Positions 1-33,198 of a stretch of 33,198 bases of DNA are shown here, piece by piece (within the stretch, counting starts at the first letter, position 1; each line of letters starts with the position of its first letter). The stretch spans positions 1-33,198 of the forward strand of contig JAFUYP010000019.1 in NCBI GenBank assembly GCA_017470535.1, read 5' to 3'. The DNA is from Ruminococcus sp. Lineage in GTDB: Bacteria > Bacillota > Clostridia > Oscillospirales > Ruminococcaceae. Both the position numbers and the translations under genes were made by a program. Under the pieces are notes generated by a model. The model had not been told where the DNA came from and did not search any database. It saw nothing but the letters and a program-made list of their open reading frames with translations.

Positions 1-143
1 CTCTGCACATCATCTGCTTGCCAGCTTTCCGTCATATTACCCAAATTCTCCTTGACTTGCGTCAGCAAGCCTGCGTCGAATTTAGGCAATCTGACGAAAA
101 TCTGGACGGCGCATCTGATGCACAGGGGTCGTGCGGTGTTGTC
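1..143 (-). repeat. Structured palindromic repeat, copy 1 (cut by window start)
   Basis: Read on the minus strand, this copy begins with the outer-stem sequence GACAACACCGCACGACC at 143 and runs to the window edge, so the distal outer arm and side hairpin are missing. The apical stem is GGCTTGC / GCAAGTC around a TGAC loop (54-71 on the plus strand). The second stem is CTGTGCATC / GATGTGCAG with two G-U pairs. With copy 4 it forms a subfamily sharing GATGCGCCGTCC and GGCAAGCAGATG. It lies just past the terminator of the 193-777 gene, and no convincing promoter precedes it. Confidence 0.85.
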
Positions 144-809: not shown

Positions 810-989
810 TTAAGGCAATACCGCACGATCACCGCCTTACGGCTTTGCACGTCATCTACTTGCAGCTTTTCCGTCATATCACCCAAATTCACCTTGAAAT
901 ACGTCAGTATTCCTACGGTAAATTTAGGCGATCTGACGAAAAACCTGACTGCGTATCTGACGTACAATGGTCGTGCGGTATTGCCTTAA
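810..989 (-). repeat. Structured palindromic repeat, copy 2 (complete), in a 5' leader
   Basis: This is a complete 180-bp copy with perfect 19-bp terminal inverted repeats: TTAAGGCAATACCGCACGA at 810-828 and its complement at 971-989. On the minus strand it folds as outer stem P1, second stem TTGTACGTC / GACGTGCAA, side hairpin GCC-GTAA-GGC, and apical stem GGAATAC-TGAC-GTATTTC. The minus-strand promoter at 989-1017 abuts it, and the ribosome binding site of the 777 gene lies 20 nt beyond its other end. It should therefore be transcribed as the 5' leader of that gene. Confidence 0.9.
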
Positions 990-21286: not shown

Positions 21287-21315
21287 TTGACAGTGACCTG
21301 AAAACTTGGTATAAT
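21287..21315 (+). promoter_or_regulatory. Promoter reading into repeat copy 3
   Basis: Perfect TTGACA (21287-21292), 17-nt spacer, TATAAT (21310-21315). The expected start near 21322 lies about 6 nt before the outer stem of repeat copy 3, so the mRNA would begin with the repeat. Confidence 0.88.
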
Positions 21316-21328
21316 ATATAATAGGTAT

Positions 21329-21500
21329 GGTAACACCGCCGGGCCATTGTATGCCAGATACGCAGTCAGATTTTACGTCAGATTGCCTGAATTTACCGCA
21401 GGAATACTGTCGTATTTCAAGGTAAATTTGGGCGATATGACGGAAAATATGCAAGTAGATGGCATACAAAGGCGTATGCCGGTGGCTCGGCGGTGTTGCC
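21329..21500 (+). repeat. Structured palindromic repeat, copy 3 (complete), in a 5' leader
   Basis: A complete copy with an 18-bp outer stem P1 (21329-21346 / 21483-21500), including two G-U pairs. The second stem P2 is fully paired: TTGTATGCC / GGCATACAA (21347-21355 / 21461-21469). Side hairpin P3 is GGC-GTAT-GCC (21471-21480). The apical stem is GGAATAC-TGTC-GTATTTC (21401-21418). Compared with copy 2, most arm changes are matched on the opposite strand. The ribosome binding site AAAGGAG of the next gene begins 8 nt after it. Confidence 0.92.
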
Positions 21501-33056: not shown

Positions 33057-33198
33057 GGGCAACACCGCACGACCATTGTGTGTCAGATGCGCCGTCCGGA
33101 TTTTCGTCAGAATGCCCATTTTTGCCGCCGTTTTACTGGCGTAAGACAAGGTAAAATTGGGTATTATGACGGAAATCCGGCAAGCAGATGGCACACAA
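33057..33198 (+). repeat. Structured palindromic repeat, copy 4 (cut by window end)
   Basis: It starts GGGCAACACCGCACGACCA and runs to the window edge, so the right outer arm and side hairpin are outside. The second stem is TTGTGTGTC / GGCACACAA. The apical stem is GTTTTAC-TGGC-GTAAGAC (33130-33147), a different sequence from the other copies but still paired. A TAGAAT lies just upstream, in the position of the -10 of copies 2 and 3, but without a good -35. The gene it would lead, if any, lies beyond the window. Confidence 0.85.

Follow-up and report, generated by a model that had tools for sequence, protein, structure and literature searches.

Strand-specific fold and replication-linked orientation of a multi-copy, MITE-like element in Ruminococcus and related Clostridia

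The 33,198-nucleotide stretch of DNA studied here (the window) makes up contig C29 of a draft Ruminococcus genome (G000; 2,116,461 bases, 86 contigs, 76% complete). It raises the question of what kind of element occurs in it four times, in copies that keep a common fold while their sequences differ. An initial annotation had proposed selection on an RNA or cruciform fold and, as the main alternative, a palindromic MITE whose arms are homogenised by template switching. A covariance model (R1), trained on 28 complete copies that all come from G000, recovers the four places and no fifth one (E up to 0.01); each of the four also matches R1 weakly on the opposite strand. Copy 2 (814..985, reverse strand, 190.6 bits) and copy 3 (21329..21500, forward strand, 193.3 bits) are complete. 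Copy 1 (1..143, reverse strand, model positions 1-143, 114.4 bits) has its 3' end truncated by the contig end, and copy 4 (33058..33198, forward strand, model positions 1-141, 131.8 bits) is also cut by a contig end. Further contigs of the same assembly start or stop within copies, and the element thus disrupts assemblies, whose contigs terminate inside it. The second copy had been placed at 810-989 and the size put at about 175 bp; an element does lie there, but the outermost letters on each side are a TTAA target-site duplication (810..813 and 986..989), and the exact length is 172 bp in 25 of 29 complete copies. The flanks of copy 3 have TAT alone in common, an imperfect duplication without an exact 4-bp match. 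In that copy, the outer stem of 19 pairs (helix 1), which is also the terminal inverted repeat, joins 21329..21347 to 21482..21500. The apical hairpin of the core, GGAATAC-TGTC-GTATTTC (helix 4), occupies 21401..21418 and carries the core pattern common to other element classes, and a side hairpin on the 3' arm, GGC-GTAT-GCC (helix 5), lies at 21471..21480. The apical loop, said always to be TGNC, has this form in the window, but TANC, TTTG or TTGAT loops are found in other copies.

The paired changes reported between the window copies are present in the sequence and exceed what chance would produce. In a structure-blind alignment of 46 copies, hand-picked for diversity from those available, 95.0% of the 2,988 pair cells are standard pairs, against 34-43% when the partners are slid by 1-3 columns; part of this excess is expected because the structure was derived from 28 copies of one genome. 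Two-sided changes affect 43 of the 65 pairs, against 27.0 after shuffling; 500 shuffles, which ignore relatedness, never attain any of the five measures. The middle pair of helix 5, for instance, is C-G in 26 and G-C in 20 of the 46 copies. Covariation beyond phylogeny, which the initial annotation had asked for, was evaluated on 128 distinct class-1 copies (32 from G033, 29 from G000, 15 from G005, 14 from G011 and 38 from others; nine class-2 or aberrant copies excluded) with a purpose-written script that works in the manner of R-scape and whose null holds constant both the tree and how many changes each column has. Significance (E below 0.05) is reached by seven column pairs: six belong to the structure, the seventh is at most two columns away from one of its pairs, and none is elsewhere. 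The multi-helix fold is real and under selection, as had been proposed. It had not been recognised as a named RNA, and the Rfam comparison agrees: at gathering scores there is no match in the window, the best sub-threshold models at copy 3 are microRNA models far under their cut-offs, and a scan of nine divergent loci returned one T-box, lying outside the element. Identity with a known RNA family was accordingly rejected for these sequences.

The fold belongs to one strand. Among the stem cells of the 128 copies, the departures from Watson-Crick pairing consist of 980 G-U, 91 A-C and 387 other mismatches, and the reconstructed changes away from Watson-Crick pairs tend the same way (183 to G-U and 66 to A-C, means of five reconstructions). 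The asymmetry is found in most helices, though not in the short stem 3 (7 G-U to 6 A-C); for the 23 predicted reverse-strand pairs the difference is weak (128 to 100). RNA folding makes the sense strand the more stable in all 128 copies (mean -90 vs -65 kcal/mol), and DNA parameters do so in 126. Base composition has a share in the strand difference: for the 68 mixed-end elements described below, shuffles favour the sense strand by a mean of 6.9 kcal/mol, compared with about 22 to 29 observed. A plain cruciform is indifferent to the strand, whereas G-U far exceeds A-C and the sense strand is the more stable; the cruciform variant of the initial reading is therefore disfavoured.

The element also has the features of a MITE, and the two readings that had been opposed to each other, fold and MITE, are not mutually exclusive. 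It is short (172 bp), multi-copy, mostly intergenic and without a transposase gene, and its terminal inverted repeat, GGCAAYACCGCAC, corresponds to the 19-pair outer stem, in which 97.6% of the cells are paired. The four nucleotides on both sides are identical in 21 of 29 complete copies, against 18% under mismatched pairing. Across several genomes, 161 of 254 flank pairs are equal and 93 differ, which supports a target-site duplication of 4 bp; the target is YTWA (TTAA 71, TTTA 23, TATA 22 and CTAA 12). The search for empty sites, also suggested at the outset, succeeded in part: orthologous regions lacking the element were found, but none is exact to the base because their flanks are only about 71-75% identical. 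The terminal-repeat ends occur 199 times in the whole of G000 (108 forward, 91 reverse; 2 and 5 for a control pattern), and this genome carries about a hundred copies. Fifty-seven distinct ones lie in 731 kb of stretches picked for holding copies; the matches to R1, at least 143 with 150 of 908 candidates scored, are not a copy count because one copy can match on both strands. In G005, a finished congener, R1 matches at least 150 distinct places. An HMM applied to 40 G000 stretches detected 62 copies, namely 47 full, 10 truncated where the region or the contig stops and five partial, the latter keeping both ends in three cases and one end in two when read by eye. Very short derivatives, having both ends and TTAA flanks with most of the interior gone, are seen at L031:1483-1517, L221 (near 2773) and L279 (near 585), and at L132 (near 952, in G005) one copy is apparently inserted within another. 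No match was found in plasmids. Five partial matches come from phages, one each in unannotated human faecal phage records (MT835572.1, MT836531.1 and three others), and the core pattern is present in five viral contigs.

Related elements extend beyond the genus. By BLAST, 13 of 61 relatives' genomes contain matches, comprising all seven of the genus of the window (its own included) and six others of the family, and none was obtained in 24 genomes from other families of the order. With strict filters, R1 has matches in 25 of 245 genomes of the order, distributed over eight families, some of them with E-values as high as 8e-4, close to the cut-off. At least 117 stretches from GTDB genomes contain the core pattern CGCAGNNATACTN{3,4}GTATNTCAAG. 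Among the 80 matches listed, the records are mostly labelled Clostridia, Clostridiales, Oscillospiraceae or Ruminococcus, including R. flavefaciens FD-1, with a few Eubacterium, Oscillibacter, Butyricicoccus and Bacillota, and Bacteroides once. The likeness of the core across these 80 loci is built in by the search, and the ends around it vary widely: GGCAAYACCGCAC, GGAAACACTGATTAAATC, GAGCCTGTTTAATATC, GAACTTGTTCTCATAGG, GGAACTGTGCAGAAATAA, GGCAACCTCTAAAAACTC and others. The duplications returned by the end finder for these loci are not independent evidence, because the finder rewarded matching flanks. The sense strand folds better in all 68 mixed-end elements, a set of 61 places kept for well-paired ends out of 83 core places plus seven class-2 elements, for which the end finder allowed G-T on the sense strand.

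No autonomous element with GGCAAYACCGCAC ends was found by searches for PF01609, PF13701 and PF13586 or among long terminal inverted repeat pairs. PF01609 gave nine matches in 3 of 10 genomes, none flanked by a pair of GGCAAYACCGCAC ends; PF13701 gave none in 10 genomes; PF13586 occurred in 1 of 12 genomes, in the same broken gene, in G008; and the long repeat pairs of the loci examined enclose no transposase bearing these ends. The enzyme can therefore only be postulated. One class of the superfamily ends in GAGCCTGTT, which resembles the ends that border a broken gene of PF01609 in L195. At L193:947-2781 (G008), two inverted GAACCTG-type elements surround an open PF13808/PF01609 transposase frame, with TAA/TAA as outer flanks; the frame has inner inverted repeats of its own, and we judge the arrangement to be a nested insertion, although this is unproven. 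At two places of G000 (C48:40127, L375, and C5:1063, L376) the terminal repeat of the element encloses a different interior containing TATGATATAATG; these ends are perhaps relics of an autonomous element.

The orientation of the copies follows replication. On the G005 contig (3,555,444 bases), the two points that best divide the orientations are at 1.25 and 3.15 Mb. In 20 sampled stretches, GC skew and gene strand change over near 1.35 and 3.2 Mb, with three stretches (262 kb, 2.236 and 2.945 Mb) not fitting this pattern. Using boundaries of 1.35 and 3.2 Mb, which were fixed after both signals had been viewed, and taking the G-rich, gene-rich strand as the leading one, the lagging-strand sequence carries the sense strand of 108 of the 150 copies scored (p 7e-8). 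Counting each of the 97 distinct sequences once leaves 67 lagging, 28 leading and 2 tied. The bias is present in copies with an identical twin (46/60 lagging) and in copies within one difference of another (72/92), so it arises at or soon after insertion; slow purging is not favoured as its cause, the youngest copies being equally biased. Counter-examples exist in one family of five identical copies (1/5 lagging) and in the distance bin 3-6 (5/13). Gene context was counted for 136 of the 150 copies: beside leading-strand genes, copies are 40 antisense to 12 sense; beside lagging-strand genes, they are 24 sense to 12 antisense; the convergent, divergent and intragenic counts are 19 to 8, 14 to 4 and 1 to 2. 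Replication outweighs genes in setting orientation in G005, and genes may add a smaller effect. In other genomes the sign is the same: G143 gave 10 of 14 (hand-counted, p 0.18, not significant alone, and with origin and terminus assumed near 2.6 and 1.3 Mb, respectively), and G000 gave 38/61 by contig skew (p 0.07), 39/61 by gene strand (p 0.04) and 33/50 where these two noisy proxies agree (p 0.03). The target is polar as well, with TTTA 23 times and TAAA 7 times in the sense orientation.

The explanation that we consider probable is that these sequences form a new superfamily of structured MITE-like elements, inserted at replication forks by an enzyme acting in trans, and that the one-strand fold serves the element itself. 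A transposase supplied in trans would recognise the ends and insert the element into YTWA sites at forks, and the fold, formed either by RNA or by single-stranded DNA, would act in mobilisation, letting the machinery distinguish two nearly identical ends; it would not regulate the genes next to it. Insertion is polar even though the outer ends are almost the same, so something internal must mark the two strands, and we infer that the selected fold is the natural candidate for this discriminator, although an enzyme that reads further than about position 18 could distinguish the ends by sequence without it. We lean towards RNA because G-U pairs are many, but the data do not separate RNA from single-stranded DNA.

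Several other scenarios were weighed against this explanation. In its relevant part, PMC5371812 gives Tn7, IS200/IS605 and several IS families as elements whose insertion is linked to the fork through the sliding clamp. An ordinary palindromic MITE, moved by a clamp-binding DDE transposase that discriminates ends diverging from about position 19 inward, could be polar while its internal fold is historical and without a role. Neutral or DNA-level decay of a palindrome predicts G-T in about the same number as A-C, however, whereas 980 and 91 were observed, and significant covariation is limited to the structure and its edge; we regard this scenario as unlikely. If the element were instead of the single-stranded DNA type, like IS200/IS605 or integron attC, with the folded strand moved or recognised at the fork, the strand-specific fold under DNA parameters (126/128) and the replication-linked orientation of young copies would be expected. 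To our knowledge, however, IS200/IS605 elements have neither terminal inverted repeats nor target-site duplications, and the present element shows both. In most copies, moreover, the better-folded sense strand is not the lagging-strand template, the reverse of the targeting that PMC5371812 presents for IS608, and this interpretation appears rather improbable. The RNA-like fold, an orientation that would be compatible with nascent leading-strand priming and the scarcity or lack of transposases of the three tested families could also suggest that a reverse transcriptase acting in trans uses the sense RNA as a template for DNA synthesis at the fork. The rarity of one-end-only copies (2/62, sequences read by eye) and the fixed 4-bp duplications with matching terminal repeats, which indicate a transposase or integrase, make this very unlikely.

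A host-selected cis-acting RNA, whether leader, terminator or mRNA stabiliser, might be envisaged from the window, where the copies lie between genes and a consensus-like promoter outside the element (TTGACA, 17 bp, TATAAT; 21287..21315, forward strand) ends 13 bp upstream of copy 3, which places this copy at about the transcription start in the sense direction. Yet of 189 distinct elements, 165 were flanked by sufficient sequence; setting aside the 16 for which one side has no gene leaves 149, classified from simple ORF calls rather than by a gene finder. Those between co-directional genes are 41 sense and 46 antisense, with 27 convergent, 29 divergent and six inside long frames. As there is no overall orientation preference relative to flanking genes, a cis-regulatory role is not indicated. 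In 181 elements, with simple letter shuffles as controls, -10-like boxes facing the element are enriched on the 3' side, which would give antisense transcripts (37 vs 16.7 expected), and hardly on the 5', sense side (25 vs 19.4), and T-runs are enriched at both ends, more so at the 5' one (24 at 5' and 15 at 3', about 7 expected at each). We give such a role little credence. Finally, the homogenisation of the arms put forward with the MITE alternative, namely that they stay complementary solely through template-switch (quasipalindrome) correction, can be recognised in three of 102 copies, all from G033 (L162:5422, L164:1001 and L177:1001), which have perfect arms of 23-34 bp and a core 5' arm that is the exact complement of the 3' arm. 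In the other 99 the perfect arms measure only 4-8 bp, and correction would erase G-U pairs and internal loops, both of which are kept. The MITE half of that alternative stands, its template-switch half applies to few copies, and as a sole cause such correction is the least credible of the scenarios considered.

Among the described repeats, MITEs of the IS5 family use YTAR or TNA targets. They share the type of target duplication, and the GAGCCTGTT-ended class is likened to them through its resemblance to the ends of the broken PF01609 gene, but, unlike for these MITEs, no autonomous partner was found for the GGCAAYACCGCAC ends. The bcr1 (BCR) repeats of the Bacillus cereus group, as far as PMC6542083 and PMC2267715 describe them, are similar in size (about 150-170 bp), copy number (11 to 130), mobile-element features (with a TTTAT motif) and predicted conserved structure. 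They differ in host group, and the comparison is one by description; the present element is shown to have a terminal inverted repeat and a 4-bp duplication, to covary in a strand-specific way and to be oriented with replication. BOX, RUP and SPRITE of pneumococcus, ERIC, Correia and QMITE are likewise MITE-like, with transcripts that can fold; compared by description, the relevant parts of PMC3049150 and PMC10969869 offered no strand-specific covariation test or replication orientation that we noticed. Subterminal hairpins recall IS200/IS605, REP and REPIN sequences, as does the replication-linked orientation of IS608 and ISDra2 in the account of PMC5371812. The present element differs from all of these by its long terminal inverted repeats, 4-bp duplications and 172-bp unit, which is well beyond the 20-40 bp palindrome with a GTAG or CGTC tag by which PMC3733652, in the part concerned, defines REP and REPIN. 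The kind of object is already known from structured intergenic repeats such as bcr1, BOX and Efa-1; what is new is the tree-tested strand-specific fold, the replication polarity and the differing ends around one core. No description of this repeat was recognised in the literature searched, a scope outside which most subscription journals fall.

Bacterial MITEs have been characterised mainly through their ends. For the present element, also a candidate for a new family in Rfam, the covariation, the G-U bias and the polarity of insertion indicate that the interior is selected and specific to one strand. A bolder form of this idea, which we put forward tentatively and rather doubt, is that the strand-specific fold within a nearly symmetric element, and not the end sequences, sets the polarity at the fork, and that the fold is a transferable module that has been combined with many ends across related Clostridia. 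Since near-identical copies are numerous in each genome, the reading in which the interior is selected is testable.
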